In this document: positions 3,505-26,329 of the stretch, piece by piece
Numbering within the stretch: position 1 is the stretch's first letter
Layout: the number at the start of each line of letters is the position of its first letter
Program-made: the position numbers and the translations under genes
Assembly: GCA_018606805.1 (NCBI GenBank)
Contig: JAGYWI010000009.1
Location: forward strand, 62,001-126,000
Origin: Candidatus Magnetomicrobium cryptolimnococcus
GTDB lineage: Bacteria; Nitrospirota; Thermodesulfovibrionia; Thermodesulfovibrionales; Magnetobacteriaceae
Reading direction: 5' to 3'
DNA: 64,000 nt
Notes under the pieces: generated by a model
Database searches by the model: none
Told to the model about the DNA's origin: nothing
Seen by the model: only the letters and a program-made list of their open reading frames with translations

Positions 3505-4162
3505 ATGAGTAATACTGAGGTTGACGTTACTATCAAAGAGGAAGTGGCTGATGGTAGCCCCACTGGCGTAGAAGAAAAGTCAGAGGAAGATACACGGGAG
3601 GAGCCTTTTGATCCTACGCAGATTTCTATTGATGTTAAGCTTATAACTTTAGACTCAATAATCCGCAGATATATGGATGCTTTTATGAGTAATGCTATGC
3701 GTGTTATAAACTTAATGCCAGACATAAAAAATGAGGAACTGAAGAAAATATTTAAAGATTCAGATAAAGACCCATATGTGCCATCATTACGTTATATAGA
3801 TGTAGATTCGTTAAAAAAGCGTTTTTTTATAGGTATGAAACGAGCTAATGAACTTTTTGGTAAATTGGCTTTTAGACGGCATTCTAAATCTGGAAGAATG
3901 AACCCACTTAATAAAACATTGTTTGAAGCATGGGGAAATGTTCTTGCTGATATTAGATGAAGATAGTTATAAAAGGCTTATTAAAAATAAGGATATTTTA
4001 GACAATACATATACAAAAAAAGCGGAGGACCCTACGTTTAATAATTCTTTTTCAAGGTATGATGCAATGTATACAGGTGTTCAATATAGGTATGAGGTAT
4101 TAAAAGAATGCCTTGCCAATGCAATAGGTATAGATGGTGGTAGAAATGTTAACAACCCTTAG
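3505..4162 (+). pseudogene. DUF262 (GmrSD-like) gene with internal deletion and frameshift
   Basis: Residues 33-56 of the first frame (EPFDPTQISIDVKLITLDS) look like the start of a DUF262 domain. They run directly into sequence typical of its C-terminal end, including FGKLAFRRH and NPLNKTLFEAWGNVL. The central part of the family, with the FQR motif, the catalytic DGQQR-type motif and the NTGG motif, is missing. The frame stops at 3960. The rest of the C-terminus continues in another frame from about 3945 to 4162 (LDEDSYKRLIKNKD onward). The gene has therefore lost its active site and carries an indel. Its intact neighbour is the DUF3696 ATPase that commonly accompanies this DUF262 type. Confidence 0.75.
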
Positions 4163-5225
4163 GTTAATTAATTTCAAGTCGTTTGAAAACCAACAATTAC
4201 AGATTAAGCCGATGACATTACTTGCAGGGTTAAATAACACAGGTAAAAGCTCTGTTATTCAGGCAATCCGTATGTTAAACAAATGGGTTAGGAAAGGTGA
4301 TCCAGCCCTTGAAGGGCATGGAATATTAAAATACCTTATAAAAAGTTTTTCTGTATATCCGGGAATTAAATTGGAGTATTTTTTTAATAAAGACAAAGCA
4401 TATGACATTATTATGGATATTACCTTTAATCAATTTGAAGAGCCAATTATTAATTCCCCTAAACCTTCTTTATCACAAATACCTTTTATAAACTATGTAA
4501 GTGCAGACCGTTTTGCTCCTAAGGTTTTTTTACCTTTATTTATATCAACAGAGGCGTTAACTTACACAGGAACGCATGGCGAATACGTCTTAGATTATCT
4601 AAGTAGAAATGAAAGAGCTATAGTACCCCCTATGCTTATACATCCTAAGTCAGAGGGTAAAACATTAATTTATAACGTACGTGCCTGGCTTACTGAAATA
4701 GCACCAGGAGTGGATTTTAATTACAATATAGAAACCAAAAACGATACATCGTACGTTCAAATAAACGGTTTTCGCCCAACCAATGCAGGCTTTGGATTAA
4801 GCTATGCTCTACCTGTAATAATATCACTCTTAGGTATGGCCAGTCAGTGGGTTGATAATAATGAGGGACAACAAAGCCACAAAGAAAGTGTGGGGGCAAT
4901 CGTACTTCTTGAAAATCCAGAGGCACACCTACACCCAAAAGGGCAAACATCTATGGGTCGTTTTATTGCACTTGCAGCAGCTTCTGGAGTACAAGTTGTT
5001 GTGGAAACTCATAGTGAACATATTATGGATGGTATACGCATTGCTGTAAAAAACGGCGAACTTATGGCAGATAAAACTGTTTTTCACTACCTTTCGCTAG
5101 ATGAAAATAAAACCACTAAGGTTGACACTCCAATACTGTATCCTAACGGAAAGCTCAGTTTCTGGCCAGAAGGCTTTTTTGACCAGTCTATGATAAACAG
5201 CGCAATTTTAGCTAGAAGAAAATAA
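4146..5225 (+). CDS. AAA ATPase with DUF3696 C-terminus (AAA_15/OLD-like)
   Basis: About 359 residues. An SMC/OLD-type ATPase begins with LRLINFKSFE and Walker A GLNNTGKSS (28-36). The signature and Walker B region LLENPEAHLHP sits near 253-263, and the switch ETHSEH is close behind. The C-terminus has WPEGFFDQ at 340-347, the hallmark of DUF3696. The first ATG is at 4134; I prefer 4146, which gives the usual MLTTLRLINFKSF start. This ATPase is usually encoded beside a DUF262 protein in loci that look like defence systems. Here it is complete while the DUF262 partner is broken. I recall such a pair within the Menshen anti-phage system, but have not verified that. Confidence 0.85.
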   Translation: MLTTLRLINFKSFENQQLQIKPMTLLAGLNNTGKSSVIQAIRMLNKWVRKGDPALEGHGILKYLIKSFSVYPGIKLEYFFNKDKAYDIIMDITFNQFEEPIINSPKPSLSQIPFINYVSADRFAPKVFLPLFISTEALTYTGTHGEYVLDYLSRNERAIVPPMLIHPKSEGKTLIYNVRAWLTEIAPGVDFNYNIETKNDTSYVQINGFRPTNAGFGLSYALPVIISLLGMASQWVDNNEGQQSHKESVGAIVLLENPEAHLHPKGQTSMGRFIALAAASGVQVVVETHSEHIMDGIRIAVKNGELMADKTVFHYLSLDENKTTKVDTPILYPNGKLSFWPEGFFDQSMINSAILARRK

Positions 5226-5858
5226 ATGGACTACCTGCTTTTCTTTAACCAACTAAGCCTCCTAGCTCCAAATGAGGATAAGGCGTATTCTTTGCTTTTT
5301 GATGCCTTTCAAGGCGTACTAAGCCTTAACGTTAATAATGACAGATTTTATCTCTATTATGATGGAGATTGTATTGATGATTGTGAGTTGTCGAAAGGTT
5401 TTACTTACAGTAACTTTAAAGGTGTATTGAAAAAAGAAAGGGAGATGGATTTAATACGCTTTATAGCTCAAATCACAGATAAAGCACCATGTCTTGATTA
5501 TGTATCTGAGGAATGTATTAAAAAAGCAACTATGTATACAACTTATATGAACGATATTAAATATGCTCAAAATATGGATATATTAAATTTTACATGGTGT
5601 GAAAACGGCATGCTGCTGAGCCTTGCAACTAATGAATTATGGGAAACTCATATTATTAACTTCTTTATTCAAGATGAAACATATAAGTCTGAACGCCAAA
5701 AAATTCATAATATATCAAAAGAAGAGCATGCTGAGCGCATATTGGAATTGTTGGAAGAAACGATAGAGGACATCTTACCCGCTGCTTATCTTAGTAATGA
5801 TTTTATTGGTATAATCAGCTTAAACATGAAGACAAAAACAAAATTAAACATAAGTTGA
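5226..5858 (+). CDS. Third gene of the DUF262/DUF3696 locus, probably 3'-truncated
   Basis: A 210-residue protein starting 1 nt after the ATPase stop codon, so surely translated with it. It opens MDYLLFFNQLSLLAPNEDKA and has no motif that I can tie to an enzyme. It resembles, from memory, the third protein often found beside DUF3696 ATPases, which is nearer 300 residues. The last 30 residues appear to come from a toxin gene start fused by a frameshift (see the RelE-like remnant). It is therefore probably a chimeric, shortened product. Function unknown. Confidence 0.6.
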   Translation: MDYLLFFNQLSLLAPNEDKAYSLLFDAFQGVLSLNVNNDRFYLYYDGDCIDDCELSKGFTYSNFKGVLKKEREMDLIRFIAQITDKAPCLDYVSEECIKKATMYTTYMNDIKYAQNMDILNFTWCENGMLLSLATNELWETHIINFFIQDETYKSERQKIHNISKEEHAERILELLEETIEDILPAAYLSNDFIGIISLNMKTKTKLNIS

Positions 5859-6206: not shown

Positions 6207-6926
6207 TCAGGCATAATTTTTTTTTACCTTTATTGCATCAGATAAAATTTTTGATATTATATATGGATACTGTTTAGAATTAAGAAGCTCTTCTGCTGTT
6301 ACCTCTTTATATTTAAATGGAATTTTAATTTCTCCAGATAAGATGTTTTCCCCCAATATCTGGCTATTACCACCGGTAGAGCCAAGACAATATACTGGTA
6401 TTCCCTTATTTATACATATATCCAATTCCTCCTTAATACCTTCCATACCGCCTATAAAAATCCCACAAATAACATCCTCATCCATTATCATTCTTGTTCG
6501 CATTTCCGTTAGACTTTCATTACGGTCATTATTTACTGCTTTAGTCCACTTCATCTCACCGATACCTTCTTTTTTTAGTTCCTCGGTGTTGTCAGGGATT
6601 ATATTTTCAAAGATTTTCGACTGATAAATATACACCATAGGAATATCTTCATCTTCTTTGTAATAAGAGAAGAAATTCTTAGCCACTGAGAGCATGAGAG
6701 GACTAATTGTTGGGTGGCCTCCAAATACTATCTTTCCACTCCTACTAAATACTGCCCTAGCTAACGCAACAACAGCATCAGTAATATTAAACGGATTGGC
6801 AGATTCATAGAATTTCTGATCCCTATCTTTTTTGGGAAAACTTGCTGAAAGAAAAATTTTTTTACCTTTTAATACTTCAGAAAATACTAAAGGTTCTATA
6901 TTATTTATATACTTTATTGTATTCAT
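6207..6926 (-). CDS. SLOG-domain protein (Rossmann-like nucleotide sensor)
   Basis: A 239-residue protein with the SLOG layout: beta strand and loop FLSASFP (25-31), VFGGHPTISPL (67-77) where the nucleotide binds, a second glycine pair FIGGMEG (157-163), and GSTGGNSQ (182-189). SLOG domains bind or process nucleotides; some are sensors in TIR- or effector-coupled defence systems, while others are LOG-like phosphoribohydrolases. No second catalytic domain is present. It lies 9 nt downstream of a frameshifted unknown gene on the same strand and beside the DUF3696 locus, so a defence or signalling role is likely, but that is inferred. Confidence 0.75.
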   Translation of the reverse strand: MNTIKYINNIEPLVFSEVLKGKKIFLSASFPKKDRDQKFYESANPFNITDAVVALARAVFSRSGKIVFGGHPTISPLMLSVAKNFFSYYKEDEDIPMVYIYQSKIFENIIPDNTEELKKEGIGEMKWTKAVNNDRNESLTEMRTRMIMDEDVICGIFIGGMEGIKEELDICINKGIPVYCLGSTGGNSQILGENILSGEIKIPFKYKEVTAEELLNSKQYPYIISKILSDAIKVKKNYA

Positions 6927-9683: not shown

Positions 9684-9718
9684 AATGGAAATCTAATTAA
9701 TTAAAAGGAGGTATGCGG

Positions 9719-11842
9719 ATGTTAAAAAAACTAATATTTTTATTCACAACAATTTTCGTAACAGCATTTTTGACAACCACAGTGTTTGCAGGTGGTTGGG
9801 AGAGGTGTAAGCTATGTCATAGGGATTCGGGTAAGCCAGCACTATCAAAGGCATCATTAATCAAGAAGTATCCAACCGCCCAAGCTTTAGTAGCTGGGGC
9901 ATTAGCAACATCTAATTATCAGATGGAATTTGTACGTTATAATGAAGATTTAGTATTAGAAGCAGCAACGGAGTTAGGATTAAAAGGAGCACCAGCTCTT
10001 AAGCACAAGGCAGATGTTTTGGCTGGGGCTGAGACAATTGATGCTAAAAAACTAGTTGAAACCAAATGTGTGACTTGTCACAATATAAACAGAATAGTAT
10101 ATGCGCCAAAATATACCGTTGAAAACTGGCTTCATATCATATCAACTATGGAAAAGCAAACAAAGGGTATGTTTACAGTAGCGGAGATGGCCGCTATAGC
10201 GGAATGGTTATACGCTAATCATGATAAGCTGACACCTACGGAAATTCAAGAGCAGTCAGTAGAAGCATTAAAGAAGGTGCCTGCTCCAGTACGTGATATA
10301 CTTGTTAAAAATAAGTGCATCATGTGTCATACAGATGAAAGATTAATCACTCAGGCAGCAGCGTGGACATCAGAGGACTGGCAGCACGTTATAGAGCGTA
10401 TGAGACAGAAGGCTCCAAGTCTATTGCATGATGTTGATAGTGTAGACCTTGCTAATCACTTGTTTGATTCCTTGGCAACTATACCTAAATCCGGGGCTAA
10501 GAAGATTACCTCTCAGTTGTATTACAAGTATTCTGCTAATGCCGAAATCTGGGGAGAGCGTCAGGGCAATTATTATCTAAATAAAGGCATAGACCAGGAT
10601 CAGGGACGGCGGCGTTTGACCGGATTTTTTGAAGCTAAAGGCAACGCTACAGGTGAAATCTTTAATCCGGATAAATGGAAGGCGTATATAAACGTCGGCT
10701 TACACACTATGATGAATCCCGGTAACGATTCCCTTGAAGATGGTCTGTACAGAAGGGTCTCGCATGATGTTAATGGCGATATTACTTTAGAAGAGGCATG
10801 GGTTGAATTAGTCTTATCTCAAGAAGCAACCGTAAGGGCTGGTATTCAGGAATATAACGCTGATTTGATTGGTACTATTTATAATGATACCGATCCGGGC
10901 GTACGCGTTTATGGTACGGTTGGTAATGGCATACAGTGGAGTCTGTTTGCAGCGCAGCGCTTTGAAAACAATCTTATCTCGGATTTAAATGTCCTTGGCG
11001 ATATTCGTGATCAGCACATAGTAATTGCCAATGCACAATTTAACGTCGGTAAGACATTAATAAAACCAACACTGATTTATAACCACGATAGAGAAGGCGA
11101 CCATAAGTACGGCAGAAGCGGATATGATGAAAAGATAGATGCCGTCTACGGTGGTGTTACAACCTACGGGCCTGTGGGACCTTTGCAGGTACTAACCGGT
11201 CTTTATGGTGCTGTTGGTATGCAGGATAACGTTATGCTGCTTGGTACAGTCCCCCTTGAGGATCAGGACATACGGGCATTTATGGGTTATGCCGATATAG
11301 CATATCCACTCAACAAAAGCATGATTACGCCACACATTGGTGTATTCTATGCCTCCGGTGATGACAACCCCGGCGATGATGATGCCGAAGGCTTTGACTC
11401 CATTTCTGATAAAGTAAATGTATGGGGTTCTAAGGGTATTATTATAGATGATAGAATAAGCTTACCCGGTGGCGTTACTGTTGTAAGAAACAATAGCCCA
11501 TATACGTCTTTGCGCGATAACGACGATAGCTCTAATTTTGTAAACCCTGGCGTGCTTGCCACTAACTTAGGTTTGGTGGTTGTGCCTCATAAGAAACTTA
11601 ATGTGGATACAAACCTAACGTATTTCTGGTGGGCAGAAACCCAGGTGCTTGAGGCTATCTTTGGCGATCTCGACAGAGAAATCGGTCTTGAATGGAATAT
11701 GTTGGTAGATTTTACAATAAACAAGAATTTAACAGTGTTTGCTGGTGGTGCTGCCTTCTGGCCTGAAAACGAAATGAATAAGATTTTTGGTGATGACAGT
11801 GTTGCAACAAACATACTCGGTGGCGTTAAAATAGGTTTTTAA
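9719..11842 (+). CDS. Outer-membrane porin fused to a three-haem cytochrome c
   Basis: I start at the second ATG because AAGGAGG (9705-9711) is 7 nt from it but only 1 nt from the ATG at 9713. A signal peptide ends at VFA-GG. The exported N-terminal part (about 220 residues) has three CxxCH haem sites: CKLCH just after cleavage, CVTCH near 117 and CIMCH near 200. The remaining 450 residues show alternating, aromatic-rich strands and end in GGVKIGF, a C-terminal phenylalanine typical of BAM-folded barrels. It thus resembles the Cyc2 idea (cytochrome plugged into its own porin), but with three haems instead of one. A role in moving electrons across the outer membrane is expected from that design and is inferred. 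Confidence 0.82.
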   Translation: MLKKLIFLFTTIFVTAFLTTTVFAGGWERCKLCHRDSGKPALSKASLIKKYPTAQALVAGALATSNYQMEFVRYNEDLVLEAATELGLKGAPALKHKADVLAGAETIDAKKLVETKCVTCHNINRIVYAPKYTVENWLHIISTMEKQTKGMFTVAEMAAIAEWLYANHDKLTPTEIQEQSVEALKKVPAPVRDILVKNKCIMCHTDERLITQAAAWTSEDWQHVIERMRQKAPSLLHDVDSVDLANHLFDSLATIPKSGAKKITSQLYYKYSANAEIWGERQGNYYLNKGIDQDQGRRRLTGFFEAKGNATGEIFNPDKWKAYINVGLHTMMNPGNDSLEDGLYRRVSHDVNGDITLEEAWVELVLSQEATVRAGIQEYNADLIGTIYNDTDPGVRVYGTVGNGIQWSLFAAQRFENNLISDLNVLGDIRDQHIVIANAQFNVGKTLIKPTLIYNHDREGDHKYGRSGYDEKIDAVYGGVTTYGPVGPLQVLTGLYGAVGMQDNVMLLGTVPLEDQDIRAFMGYADIAYPLNKSMITPHIGVFYASGDDNPGDDDAEGFDSISDKVNVWGSKGIIIDDRISLPGGVTVVRNNSPYTSLRDNDDSSNFVNPGVLATNLGLVVVPHKKLNVDTNLTYFWWAETQVLEAIFGDLDREIGLEWNMLVDFTINKNLTVFAGGAAFWPENEMNKIFGDDSVATNILGGVKIGF

Positions 11843-11849
11843 AGGAACA

Positions 11850-12060
11850 AAGATGCGTGGGGGAAAACCTTTTTCAAGGGTGCGAAGCCCTGTTCTTCCC
11901 CCACACCCCTTACGGGAGTGCGCCTACACCCCTTACGGGAGTGCGCCTACACCCCTTACGGGAGTGCGCCTACACCCCTTACGGGAGTGCGCCTACACCC
12001 CTTACGGGAGTGCGCCTACGCACCTTACGGGAGTGCGCCTACGCACTTCCTAAAGTTTTT
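11850..12060 (+). repeat. Composite element with six tandem 23-bp hairpin units
   Basis: The element begins GATGCGTGGGGGAAAACCTTTTT, as in the other composite elements, just after the cytochrome-porin stop. From 11903 to 12040 there are six head-to-tail copies of a 23-bp unit (ACCCCTTACGGGAGTGCGCC core); the last has GCACC for ACCCC. It closes with TTCCTAAAGTTTTTGG. Open frames run through it in all phases because the unit lacks stops, but none is a gene. Confidence 0.9.
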
Positions 12061-12136
12061 GGTCTACAATTTATTTAGTTATCCCTCTTATCTTTTGCTA
12101 CATTTTTACTGCCTAAAAGTTTTATAATTACAAACT

Positions 12137-14455
12137 ATGTTTTACGTACTTATCCTATTTATGCTCTTTACAAGCAACCTGTATGCTGAAGTATATGTTT
12201 CTGAAAACGTTTTAGCGGGTGAAAGTGGCTATGTTGGCGCTAATCTTACTAATAACAGAAATGGCGCTCAAACTGTTAATGGTATAGGCTTTCAGTATGT
12301 TTATCCGCCGGATACGGTTGGTGATGTGGGACCAAACCATTACGTGCAGATGGTTAATTCGGCTTTTGCTATTTACAATAAAGATGGTTCTTTGCTTGCT
12401 GGTCCCTATGATATAAACACACTGTGGAGTGGTCAGGGTAATCACTGTGAGCGTACTAATGACGGCGACCCTGTGGTGCTTTATGACTCTATGGCTGATA
12501 GATGGTTTCTAAGCCAGCTTTCGTTGCCAAATGGCAATGGCACTGGACCGTGGTATATGTGCATAGCCATATCTGAGACTCCTGAGCCAACAGGCAAATA
12601 CTATTTGTACGAATTTCAGGTCAATGACGATGTAGACCATATGCCTGATTATCCCAAATTTGCTGTTTGGCCGGATGCCTATTATATGACAACAAACGAT
12701 AGCCCACCAAGTGTCGGGGTTTTTGCATTTAATAGGGAAAAGATGCTAAATGGTGAAGCTGCTTCCTATCAGAAGTTTAGTGTCCGTACCAATTTATTAT
12801 TGCCAGCAGACCTTGATGGTCAGACTCCGCCACCTTCTGGTAGTGCCGGCTATTTTTATACTATGATGGATGACTCCTTTTGGCCTGCTTATGGATTTAA
12901 TGGGCAAGACCGCCTTGAAATATATGAATTTAAGGTGGATTTCAATAACTCATCTAATTCAACGTTTACCAAAACTATAGAGCTGCCGCTAACCCCATAC
13001 GAGTATACCGTGTGCGGTTATTTTAATCTTCCTTGTATTAACCAACCAAAGCCCGGTGAAAAATTGGATGCTATCTCGGAGTGGCCTATGTGGCGTTTTG
13101 TTTATAGAAATTTTGGCAATCATGAAAGTCTAATTGGTAACTTTACAGTAGATACAGATGGCAAAAGACATGCCGGCATACGGTGGTTTGAATTAAGAAA
13201 AACAGCCACATCAAATAATTGGGAGCTCTACCAAGAAGCCACTCATGCCCCTGATGCAATGCACAGGTGGCTTGGTAGTATTGCTATGGATGGAAAGGGC
13301 AATATAGCCCTTGGTTATAGTGTGTCAAGCCACACGATGAACCCTGCTATACGTTATGCCGTACGTTTGTCAACTGATACGATAGGCACGTTGCAAGAGG
13401 AGATGACTATCGTTGATGGCCCTGGGGTGCAGGTTGACGGCAGCAATCGCTGGGGTGATTACAGCTCTATGAATATAGACCCAGCGGATGATTGTACGTT
13501 TTGGTACACAAATGAATATTATGAACAAGGGGCTATGGGCTGGAGTACTAAGATTAGCTCATTTCAAATACCCGGCTGCATGGATAGTGGCTCTATCAAC
13601 TTTCTTGCCGCAATTGATGTAACTGGCAATGTTTATTATACAAAGAATCTGTCATCGTGGACGCCCATTGCAGGGTCTTTGGCAACACTTATAAGTGGGG
13701 ATTTTAATGGTGATGGTAGTGTAGACCTTGCAGGCTTAAGTGAGTCAGGACTTGTGTTTTATACTATAAATTTAACATCTTGGCAAAATATACCGGGTGT
13801 TCTTTCTTATATAACAAGTGGCGATTTAAATGCCGACGGTAGGGATGACCTTGTAGGACTTACAAGCGGAGGATACATATTTTATACTACCGATTTAAAA
13901 AACTGGCAAAATATACCGGGTACGCTTTTTGAGCTAACTTTGGGTGATATTGATGGTAATGCTACTGATGATATAGTTGGTTTATCTGCAAGTGGTGGTA
14001 TTTTTTATACTGTAGATTTAAAAAACTGGGGGCAAATCTTAGGCTCATTGGCAAAGCTTGCCCTTGGGCATATAAATAATGATGGGTTGGATGATGTGAT
14101 AGGTCTTTCATCAACAGGAAATCTCTATTATTGCTTAGATAAAACCACATGGAATAGCTTATCGGGGCAGTTAGCTTCAATCCATATAGGTGATGTAAAT
14201 GGTGATGGTGTGGATGATATTGTTGGGATTAATAAATCTGGCAAACTTTGGTATACCGTTGATGTACAAACATTTAAAAGTCTAAATAACGCCTCGTCGG
14301 TTGCTACAATAACACTTGGGGATATAAATGGTGATGGTAGAGGTGATGTTGCAGGAGTAAATACAGATGGACAGGTATTTTACACTATAGATTTTAAAAC
14401 CATTAAAACTCTACCGACTGAAAATATAGTCTTTACTGGAATAGTAACTAAATAA
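12137..14455 (+). CDS. Secreted FG-GAP/VCBS-like repeat protein
   Basis: A 772-residue protein with a signal peptide (MFYVLILFMLFTSNLYA) and no membrane anchor. The first 480 residues form an unrecognised domain, rich in aromatic residues and probably beta-structured, with four or more cysteines. From about residue 490 there are six repeats of roughly 45 residues, each with a calcium-loop motif such as GDFNGDGSVDLAGL or GDVNGDGVDDIVGI, then a strand like VFYTxDLKxW. This pattern is that of FG-GAP/VCBS beta-propeller blades, and six or seven would close one propeller. Likely periplasmic, outer-surface or released, with an adhesive or carbohydrate-binding role. No ribosome site is visible at the ATG. 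Confidence 0.72.
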   Translation: MFYVLILFMLFTSNLYAEVYVSENVLAGESGYVGANLTNNRNGAQTVNGIGFQYVYPPDTVGDVGPNHYVQMVNSAFAIYNKDGSLLAGPYDINTLWSGQGNHCERTNDGDPVVLYDSMADRWFLSQLSLPNGNGTGPWYMCIAISETPEPTGKYYLYEFQVNDDVDHMPDYPKFAVWPDAYYMTTNDSPPSVGVFAFNREKMLNGEAASYQKFSVRTNLLLPADLDGQTPPPSGSAGYFYTMMDDSFWPAYGFNGQDRLEIYEFKVDFNNSSNSTFTKTIELPLTPYEYTVCGYFNLPCINQPKPGEKLDAISEWPMWRFVYRNFGNHESLIGNFTVDTDGKRHAGIRWFELRKTATSNNWELYQEATHAPDAMHRWLGSIAMDGKGNIALGYSVSSHTMNPAIRYAVRLSTDTIGTLQEEMTIVDGPGVQVDGSNRWGDYSSMNIDPADDCTFWYTNEYYEQGAMGWSTKISSFQIPGCMDSGSINFLAAIDVTGNVYYTKNLSSWTPIAGSLATLISGDFNGDGSVDLAGLSESGLVFYTINLTSWQNIPGVLSYITSGDLNADGRDDLVGLTSGGYIFYTTDLKNWQNIPGTLFELTLGDIDGNATDDIVGLSASGGIFYTVDLKNWGQILGSLAKLALGHINNDGLDDVIGLSSTGNLYYCLDKTTWNSLSGQLASIHIGDVNGDGVDDIVGINKSGKLWYTVDVQTFKSLNNASSVATITLGDINGDGRGDVAGVNTDGQVFYTIDFKTIKTLPTENIVFTGIVTK

Positions 14456-14499
14456 AATATGGTAAACGATAAGAGGAATAACTAAATGTATTACAAGCT

Positions 14500-14625
14500 A
14501 AAAGTTTTTGGAAAAGGGTGCGGAGGCGCACTCCCTGTTCTGTGCGGAGGCGCACTCCCTGTTCTGTGCGGAGGCGCACTCCCTGTTCTGTGCGTAAGCG
14601 CACTCCCTGTTCTTCCCCAATGATT
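14500..14625 (-). repeat. Composite element with four tandem 24-bp hairpin units
   Basis: AAAAGTTTTTGGAAAAGGGTG is followed by four head-to-tail copies of GTGCGGAGGCGCACTCCCTG plus TTCT (14518-14613). The fourth copy has TAAG for GAGG. Each unit can fold on GTGCG/CGCAC. It lies between the convergent ends of the FG-GAP-like gene and the TPR gene, and is oriented opposite to the 11850 element. Confidence 0.88.
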
Positions 14626-19590: not shown

Positions 19591-20512
19591 ATGTCAAAAG
19601 AATACGACAAGGTTATAAAAGAGCTTTTAAAGGATACGGTAGCAGCTTTGCTTGAAAAGATTACAGGTGTAGACATAAGCAAAGCGGAGTTATTAGAACC
19701 GAAGCTGCAAATTACGGATGAACGTGAAGCTGACTTTATCTTGAAAGCTCAACTAAAGGATGGAAGCCAAGAGATTTATCACATAGAATTTCAAGGGTGT
19801 GTAGGCACACCTCCCTTCTACAAACGACAACAACATGGGCTATCGGGAACTGCGCTACTGGGTTTATCTACGGCAGGTTTATAAACTGCCTGTTAAACAA
19901 TATGTGGTTTATATCGGCAAAAAGCCTTTAAAGATGAAAAATACCCTTATGGAAGACAGCACAACCCACAGCTACACCATAATAGACATGAGAACAGTTG
20001 ATTGTGAAAAGTTCTTATATGCAGATAGACCTGAGGAGGTTATCATTTCTATATTGTGTGATTATAAGGGTAGAGATGTTCGAATGTTTATAAGGGAGAT
20101 ACTTGAGAGGATAAGGGAATTAGTAAAAGAGGAAACACTCCAAAGTAAATATATAAAACAATTGGAGATATTATCTAATTTACGAGATTTACAAAATTAT
20201 GTGGGCGAGGAGGTAGATAAGATGGCTTTTATATTTGATTTAACAAAAGATTATAGGTTTCAACAAGGTAGAGAAAAAGGCAGAGAAGAAGGAATGGAAC
20301 AAGGTAGAGAAAAAGGCAGAGAAGAAGGAATGGAAAAAGGGCTAAAAGAGGGTATCGAATTGGCTTTGGAAGTAAAGTTTGGCTTTGATAGTTTAGAATT
20401 AATTGAAAAAATCAAGGGTATCAGAGATATACAACAATTAGAAAATATAAAGGATATTATAAAAAATACAAACACGGTAGCTGAATTTATTCAAAAAATC
20501 ACAAAAGATTAA
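19591..20512 (+). pseudogene. Rpn-family (PD-(D/E)XK nuclease) gene broken by a 22-bp repeat insertion
   Basis: The first frame has the Rpn N-terminus (ITDEREADFILKAQL, YHIEFQ) with the nuclease residues Asp and ExQ. The second frame, from about 19817, has STNDNNMGYRELRYWVYLRQ, KLPVKQYVVYIG and the typical tail of charged GREKGREEGMEQ repeats. Removing bases 19795-19816 rejoins them exactly as YHIEFQ-STNDNNMGYREL, giving one protein of about 299 residues. The removed 22 bp is identical to the dispersed repeat unit. The Rpn family acts as recombination-promoting nucleases; this copy cannot be made full length without frameshifting. Confidence 0.88.
19795..19816 (+). mobile_element. 22-bp palindromic unit inserted in the Rpn gene
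   Basis: GGGTGTGTAGGCACACCTCC followed by CT. The unit folds as GGTGTG-TAGG-CACACC. Identical copies are at 3358-3379 (+), 19472-19493 (-) and 20625-20646 (+); a one-base variant is repeated four times at 26092-26187. Its length, 22, is not divisible by three, so it shifts the frame. Confidence 0.85.
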
Positions 20513-20572
20513 TATAGCAGATTTTGGTACATTTAGATAAATTTTTTAAATTTAACCCAAATATGCGGTTTA

Positions 20573-20739
20573 AAAGTTTTAGGTGCGTAGGCGCACTCCC
20601 GTAAGGTGCGTAGAAGAACAGGGAGGGTGTGTAGGCACACCTCCCTGTGTGCTGCCGCACCTCTTTTTCTCGAAAAGGGGTTTCCCGCCTACACCGTCTA
20701 ATTTTTTCTTTTTTTCTTTTTTTACTTCTTTTCTTTAAA
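20573..20739 (-). repeat. Composite element with 22-mer unit and polypyrimidine tract
   Basis: On the plus strand it reads AAAAGTTTTAGGTGCGTAGG, with a GTGCG-TAGG-CGCAC unit, an exact 22-mer (20625-20646), CTCGAAAAGGGGTTTCCCGC and a T/C-rich tail (20701-20739). It is therefore oriented opposite to the element at 3252. It separates the broken Rpn gene from gmhA. Confidence 0.78.
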
Positions 20740-20777
20740 AATTAAAAAGTTGTAATATATAAAAAAGGAGGTTACTC

Positions 20778-25899: not shown

Positions 25900-26030
25900 T
25901 ATAATAGCTTACTTATTAAAAAGATTACACAAAAAAACCACCACTCTACCCGCTACTTACTATCGCTAAATATTAATGTAATTATTTTAACACAAATGAT
26001 ACAAGCAGTCAACTGTCAACATCTATTAAA

Positions 26031-26190
26031 AAGAAACAAATACACAGTGAGGGCGCTGCCCTCACACTCCCCGCCCAAGGGGCTTTGTCTCAGGGAGGTG
26101 TGCCTTCACACCCTTAGGGAGGTGTGCCTTCACACCCTTAGGGAGGTGTGCCTTCACACCCTTAGGGAGGTGTGCCTTCACACCCTTGAA
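26031..26190 (+). repeat. GTGAGGGC hairpin plus four tandem 24-bp units
   Basis: GAAACAAATACACAG, shared with 19410 and 49345, leads into the perfect hairpin GTGAGGGC-GCT-GCCCTCAC (26047-26065), then CTCCCCGCCCAAGGGGC. Four head-to-tail 24-bp units AGGGAGGTGTGCCTTCACAC plus CCTT fill 26092-26187. These differ from the 22-mer by one base and a 2-nt linker. The 430-nt gap between the kinase and the next gene holds nothing else I can name. Confidence 0.88.
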
Positions 26191-26329
26191 CCATTTTTAT
26201 TTTGGTATAGGTATATTTAAGTACTTAAGCAGATAGCTCTTTTTACTTCTTTTTTTTTATAATATTAATGTGTGTTACATAATTTTATATTAAGCGTTGG
26301 TATTATATTTTTTAAAGGAGGGCTTTCCA

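Follow-up and report, generated by a model that had tools for sequence, protein, structure and literature searches.

A single gene in the 64-kb window (the whole stretch of DNA that was analysed, 64,000 nucleotides) encodes, as a single polypeptide, a cytochrome with three c-type haems followed by an outer-membrane barrel. The original prediction of three CxxCH sites joined to such a barrel is upheld by the cysteine count, the AlphaFold2 model and the matches to solved barrels. The protein is tentatively read as an outer-membrane cytochrome-porin that would work like Cyc2 from outside the Cyc2 family, exchanging electrons with small soluble species in its pore; we put the probability of this reading at about 0.4. 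The positions of all features are collected in Table 1.

The open frame is uninterrupted from 9713 to 11842 and corresponds to 709 aa; residues are numbered throughout on this 709-aa form, counted from ATG 9713. The start originally chosen, ATG 9719, is the better one, because the Shine-Dalgarno sequence AAAAGGAGG is spaced 7 nt from it and only 1 nt from ATG 9713. The signal peptide MLKKLIFLFTTIFVTAFLTTTVFA is the sole export signal in the protein. There are six cysteines, all within the three CxxCH motifs (residues 32, 119 and 202), while ~0.001 such motifs would be expected by chance from the composition of the protein. No other ORF of at least 90 aa in the window carries a CxxCH; genome-wide counting of this pattern was too noisy for use. 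Promoter and terminator patterns flanking the gene occur at chance level only.

Table 1. Features of the cytochrome-barrel fusion gene (window positions; residues of the 709-aa form).
Feature	Position	Strand	Basis or remark
Three-haem cytochrome-barrel fusion gene	9719..11842	+	707 aa from ATG 9719; frame also open from ATG 9713
Shine-Dalgarno AAAAGGAGG	9703..9711	+	Spaced for ATG 9719 (sequence)
Signal peptide MLKKLIFLFTTIFVTAFLTTTVFA	9719..9790	+	Sequence; aligns with signal peptides of free small cytochromes
Monohaem domain, residues 27-94	9791..9994	+	Equals an entire small free cytochrome common in Magnetobacteriaceae
Haem site 1 CKLCH, residues 32-36	9806..9820	+	Candidate distal ligand Met71 (9923-9925), invariant
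Dihaem class I tandem, ~residues 111-257	10043..10483	+	PF09098-type
Haem site 2 CVTCH, residues 119-123	10067..10081	+	Candidate distal ligand Met146 (10148-10150), invariant
Haem site 3 CIMCH, residues 202-206	10316..10330	+	Candidate distal ligand Met230 (10400-10402), invariant
Short linker, dihaem domain to barrel, residues 258-269	10484..10519	+	AlphaFold2 model
AlgE-like outer-membrane barrel, 18 strands, residues 270-709, C-terminal Phe	10520..11839	+	AlphaFold2, structure matches
Long acidic loop, strands 13/14, residues 548-613	11354..11551	+	Alignment, model

Several other elements of the window are of note in their own right. Just downstream of the fusion gene (12137-14455), a secreted protein of 772 aa that contains tectonin and FG-GAP repeats is encoded; it is absent next to the corresponding gene of Candidatus Magnetobacterium casense and there is no sign of a functional link to the fusion. 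Short intergenic sequences reading GVRLRT / GSAPTP / REVCLHTL are repeated at 11853-12110, 14448-14620, 20499-20740 and 26000-26220. Upstream, a SLOG cluster-3 family protein (6207-6926; PF18180, E 2.5e-32) is possibly involved in nucleotide signalling, and an AAA_15/DUF3696 ATPase gene (4134-5225) followed by a small gene (5226-5858) has a layout like that of OLD-type/defence ATPase pairs.

The haem part of the protein is composed of two kinds of units. Residues 1-94 align end to end, signal peptide included, with a free cytochrome, 88-96 aa long, that occurs widely in Magnetobacteriaceae and has one copy elsewhere in the source genome (G000:C80, L022). Met71 is invariant across this group of small monohaem cytochromes. 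A profile of the monohaem domain gave no significant match in the PDB, and a direct BLAST-type search of the same database with the whole fusion protein gave none at all. As had been proposed, both internal haem segments are of the class I type: residues 111-237 match PF09098 with 37.6 bits, above the gathering cut-off of 25.2, and a small profile of the dihaem units identified 1JJU (E 6e-10), 1JMX and SorB (2BLF) in the PDB, the first two corresponding to the dihaem domain of the quinohaemoprotein amine dehydrogenase alpha subunit.

The barrel was modelled with AlphaFold2 from an alignment of 66 sequences (the fusion and 65 homologues). Residues 270-709 have a pLDDT mostly above 90 and form 18 long strands, with short turns alternating with longer loops. 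About 450 barrel residues had been proposed, and the model has ~440; the matches to solved structures span residues 265-709. AlgE gives the best of these matches (Z 29.4, rmsd 3.0 over 360 residues; Foldseek E 4e-18), and the next are OprD/Occ channels. The acidic loop, with 13 D/E in 66 residues, lies on the outer side by strand count and is the best-conserved stretch of the barrel family (SGDxxPxD..GFD.I.D ... NFVNPG).

The haem domains are far less well defined: in the full model their pLDDT is 30-55 and their position relative to the pore is not fixed, and the dihaem domain modelled alone with its single close homologue reaches a pLDDT of 43. A barrel is present in the prediction, and the linker of ~10 residues speaks against haem domains held away from the pore on an extended linker, the domains themselves being unplaced. 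The original proposal that the protein moves electrons across the outer membrane is to be put conditionally for the same reason. By a size estimate, the lumen of an 18-strand barrel has a radius of ~12-14 Å and a single haem unit measures ~13.5 Å; one unit could therefore plug the mouth of the pore, as has been proposed for Cyc2, and three in a row inside it are unlikely.

The sole close relative found is encoded by Candidatus Magnetobacterium casense MYR-1 (G007, also L003 and L046), which gave the only full-length match among the 60 relatives searched first. Over 601 residues the two proteins share 56% identity, and haem 2, haem 3 and the entire barrel are kept. Haem 1 is missing from M. casense, where the protein's own signal peptide directly precedes the dihaem part; the conserved architecture is thus a dihaem domain plus a barrel, with a single genome known to have the third haem. 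Beyond the fusion gene itself, the two loci have no neighbouring genes in common.

The barrel belongs to a much larger family: at least 517 relatives turned up when 84,980 species genomes were scanned, the best 80 of which come from Planctomycetota, Acidobacteriota, Nitrospirota, Myxococcota, Pseudomonadota and others. The homology between the fusion and this family (L036-L038, L047-L125, L138) amounts to 24-31% over 300-400 residues, with E-values to 1e-35. In 77 of the best 80 relatives the barrel gene has no haem site, the exceptions being M. casense and two Blastocatellia. An ORF with at least seven CxxCH lies just downstream on the same strand in 59 of these 80, mostly within 100 bp, and when the loci are restricted to those with enough downstream sequence (M. 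casense excluded), a multihaem ORF is directly downstream in 62 of 63. The typical partner is a protein of 1,190-1,520 aa with ten CxxCH and MtrC/MtrF-like and LVIVD regions; its likeness to ExtM is sub-threshold. This decahaem partner adjoins haem-less barrels in three other Nitrospirota and was not found in the source genome (G000) or in M. casense (G007). Likewise, the N-terminal segment of the family, DRWRxG..DPYxQNxLKGDxPxxG, is absent from the fusion and from M. casense: the haem domain stands in its place. The fusion looks like a porin whose lineage is without the decahaem partner and which bears fused class I haems.

The barrel-decahaem pair appears to be unnamed in spite of its presence in many phyla, with barrels of 500-1000 aa (e.g., L081:3334-13071); on Sphingobium plasmids it is annotated merely as 'hypothetical protein'. 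At 13 of the 63 loci, an additional multihaem gene is located upstream. In the Nitrospira locus L081, the upstream gene encodes an FHA-decahaem protein and is followed by one for an HbpS-like protein. Weak C-terminal matches in the same order (L026-L034) were set aside as ordinary haem-less porins beside rfaE-like genes.

Two members of the family, in the Blastocatellia (L074, 7035-9323, and L114, 3222-5594), carry the same type of barrel behind a tetrahaem class III domain (PF02085) in one chain. A decahaem gene lies downstream in L074; the L114 sequence ends before that point. In the tree, both are nested among haem-less barrels of Acidobacteriota, and the window protein and its M. casense counterpart group together outside all the others on a long branch, a position that is unsure because of the branch length. 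Class I and c3 haem domains are unrelated, so haem domains were fused to this barrel family at least twice. The notion of an intermediate design has to be revised: the barrel is AlgE-like, its relatives go with a decahaem cytochrome encoded separately, and the fusion does not look like a step from Cyc2 to Mtr.

How could such a protein function? In barrels of this kind both termini are periplasmic, and c-type haems are attached in the periplasm. With the barrel in the outer membrane, the N-terminus, and hence the three haems, would be periplasmic, and the dihaem domain, ~10 residues from strand 1, would sit in the pore mouth on the periplasmic side, or next to it. Small soluble redox species, e.g., Fe2+ or a small compound of sulfur or nitrogen, may enter the pore and exchange electrons with the nearest haem, from which the remaining haems would pass electrons to soluble periplasmic cytochromes. 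Judged from sequence comparison, several points would count for such an electron relay: the fusion is intact in M. casense with both internal haems kept at this degree of divergence, each haem unit has invariant candidate ligands of the His/Met type, and the barrel family is apparently tied to electron transfer by its downstream multihaem genes (62/63). Against it stand the unplaced haem domains of the models and the lack of a conserved neighbour gene and of a partner cytochrome in the window.

A further hint comes from free cytochromes related to the dihaem units. The closest ones outside the Magnetobacteriaceae are units of a trihaem cytochrome in three genomes (G180, G189 and G198). In two of them, both Nitrospirota (G189 and G180), the trihaem gene is directly downstream of a 410-411-aa monohaem porin, whose sequence AIPAFARKHNVDCxSCHSAWPLLN nearly fits the Cyc2 motif. 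Class I units of this type are thus found beside a Cyc2-type porin in one lineage and inside a different porin in another; no other single observation hints as strongly that they may be the periplasmic relay of a cytochrome-porin. The same arrangement of a Cyc2-type porin followed by a trihaem class I gene (L169:609-2718, L170:3736-5789) provides a candidate for the electron acceptor of Cyc2 itself.

Nearly as likely as a Cyc2-like function is that the protein is a substrate-specific porin with tethered periplasmic cytochromes: a small substrate would pass the barrel into the periplasm and be turned over there by a soluble dehydrogenase or reductase, with the tethered haems as electron carrier of that enzyme; no electrons would then cross the outer membrane via the fusion. 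The predicted AlgE-like fold is common with substrate-specific channels, and a transport role is possible; in the same vein, the AlgE/Occ-like barrel is that of substrate channels, and the dihaem units resemble electron-accepting subunits (quinohaemoprotein amine dehydrogenase alpha, SorB). There is also a precedent in ExtI of Geobacter, a porin encoded in a cytochrome cluster: selenite and tellurite reduction require it, Fe(III) reduction does not (PMC5877670), which shows that such a porin can serve a soluble oxyanion rather than a mineral. On the contrary, the kin of the barrel are tied to surface-type decahaem cytochromes, pointing to electron transfer at the outer membrane, and no dehydrogenase gene is adjacent in the source genome or in M. 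casense.

It is unlikely that the fusion is a single-chain transmembrane conduit, with the haem units threaded into the barrel as MtrA is in MtrB. The three haems, the short linker and the decahaem partners of the barrel's kin would suit such an arrangement. But the lumen barely takes one folded class I unit, three units would have to fill it end to end, and the model puts no haem domain inside it; MtrB takes 26 strands to enclose its cytochrome. Equally doubtful is a one-chain conduit in which three class I haems take over from the decahaem cytochrome of the unnamed porin-decahaem system; no smaller multihaem route across an outer membrane would then be known.

That the haem units gate the pore or act as a sensor, plugging it and opening it upon a redox change or the binding of NO, CO or O2, is very improbable: they do directly precede the barrel, but an invariant Met as candidate ligand of each haem is the mark of an electron carrier and not of a ligand sensor. 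Least credible of all is an artefact of assembly or sequencing by which a lost stop joined two adjacent genes, one for a small cytochrome and one for a dihaem barrel. The monohaem unit does equal a whole free cytochrome, the stop of which usually comes after ...LGLK, where the frame of the fusion continues; M. casense is without this unit, and the source genome is a draft (3.59 Mb in 91 contigs, 98.5% complete). However, the dihaem-barrel fusion itself is present in two genera, and no second signal peptide was identified at the monohaem/dihaem junction in any frame, so the barrel could be exported only as part of the fusion. As far as the sequence allows, this missing signal peptide argues for a genuine monohaem fusion.

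The outer-membrane electron conduits known so far are of two kinds, one-haem fusions (Cyc2) and barrels whose multihaem proteins are separate chains. A fused form with two or three haems, in a barrel family that otherwise goes with a decahaem protein, would show that such conduits are modular and that a single barrel family has repeatedly acquired haem units by fusion (class I here, c3 in Blastocatellia). In a search of open-licence papers, which is weak evidence, neither a two- or three-haem cytochrome-porin fusion nor an AlgE-like barrel with a decahaem-LVIVD partner was reported. As a small protein encoded by a single gene, the fusion would allow the minimum needed for electron movement at the outer membrane to be tested, and it would offer a starting point for work on how uncultured magnetotactic Nitrospirota exchange electrons. 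Of greater importance than the fusion may be the unnamed barrel-decahaem family.

Compared with proteins of known structure, the fusion barrel has its 18-strand fold in common with AlgE (4AFK, 3RBH; Z 29) at an identity of 14-15%; AlgE has no fused haems. Its Pfam Alginate_exp score of 15.1 bits is below the cut-off of 25.2. Dihaem class I units are common to the fusion, the quinohaemoprotein amine dehydrogenase alpha subunit (1JJU, 1JMX) and SorB (2BLF), but the remaining enzyme parts of these proteins are absent from it. The whole-protein score for the former is far below the cut-off (TIGR03908 25.9 vs. 274.35), as is the SorB NCBIfam score (37.3 vs. 93). The tetrahaem proteins of the Blastocatellia also bear N-terminal c-type haems in the same chain, in an unrelated haem domain (c3). 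The decahaem-paired barrels have a separate downstream cytochrome; the window protein has fused class I haems and stands on a long separate branch.

Like MtrAB, PioAB and PCC, the window protein combines a barrel with a multihaem cytochrome at the outer membrane. In those systems the components are separate chains, while the fusion unites three class I haems and 18 strands in one. The MtrB/PioB family is absent from its NCBIfam matches down to E 0.1, and assignment to MtrAB/PCC was rejected for want of a 26-strand barrel and of a separate multihaem gene among the window's ORFs of at least 90 aa.

Cyc2 is the closest parallel in design. Of the two designs described in reviews and genome surveys, Cyc2 is the monohaem fusion, the other consisting of porins with separate multihaem cytochromes (PMC9040806, PMC10734462, PMC8406198). 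Its barrel was predicted to have 16 strands and to be OprO/OprP-like, and the motif AXPXFAR[Q/K][T/Y] lies upstream of its CxxCH (PMC8406198). Cyc2-like porins occur in 8 of the 19 genomes of Magnetobacteriaceae, in neither of the two with the fusion vs. 8 of the 17 others, which is not significant as a mutual exclusion with only two fusion genomes (Fisher p = 0.49). These porins (L172, L173 and others) are monohaem, carry the variant motif AVPSYSRRYGLDCTVCH and adjoin a gene for a sigma-54-type regulator. When the profiles of the fusion and of Cyc2-type porins from the same phylum were compared, CxxCH was all they had in common. Cyc2 membership was rejected accordingly: the fusion is without AXPXFAR[Q/K][T/Y], and its barrel is 18-strand and AlgE-like rather than 16-strand. 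Haem number, motif, barrel and NCBIfam matches all agree with the original prediction that the protein differs both from one-haem Cyc2 and from separate-protein conduits. What it shares with Cyc2 and Cyt572 (Fe(II) oxidase) is an N-terminal c-type haem part fused to an outer-membrane barrel, likely on the periplasmic side in both; it differs in having three CxxCH (two in M. casense) where Cyc2 has one.
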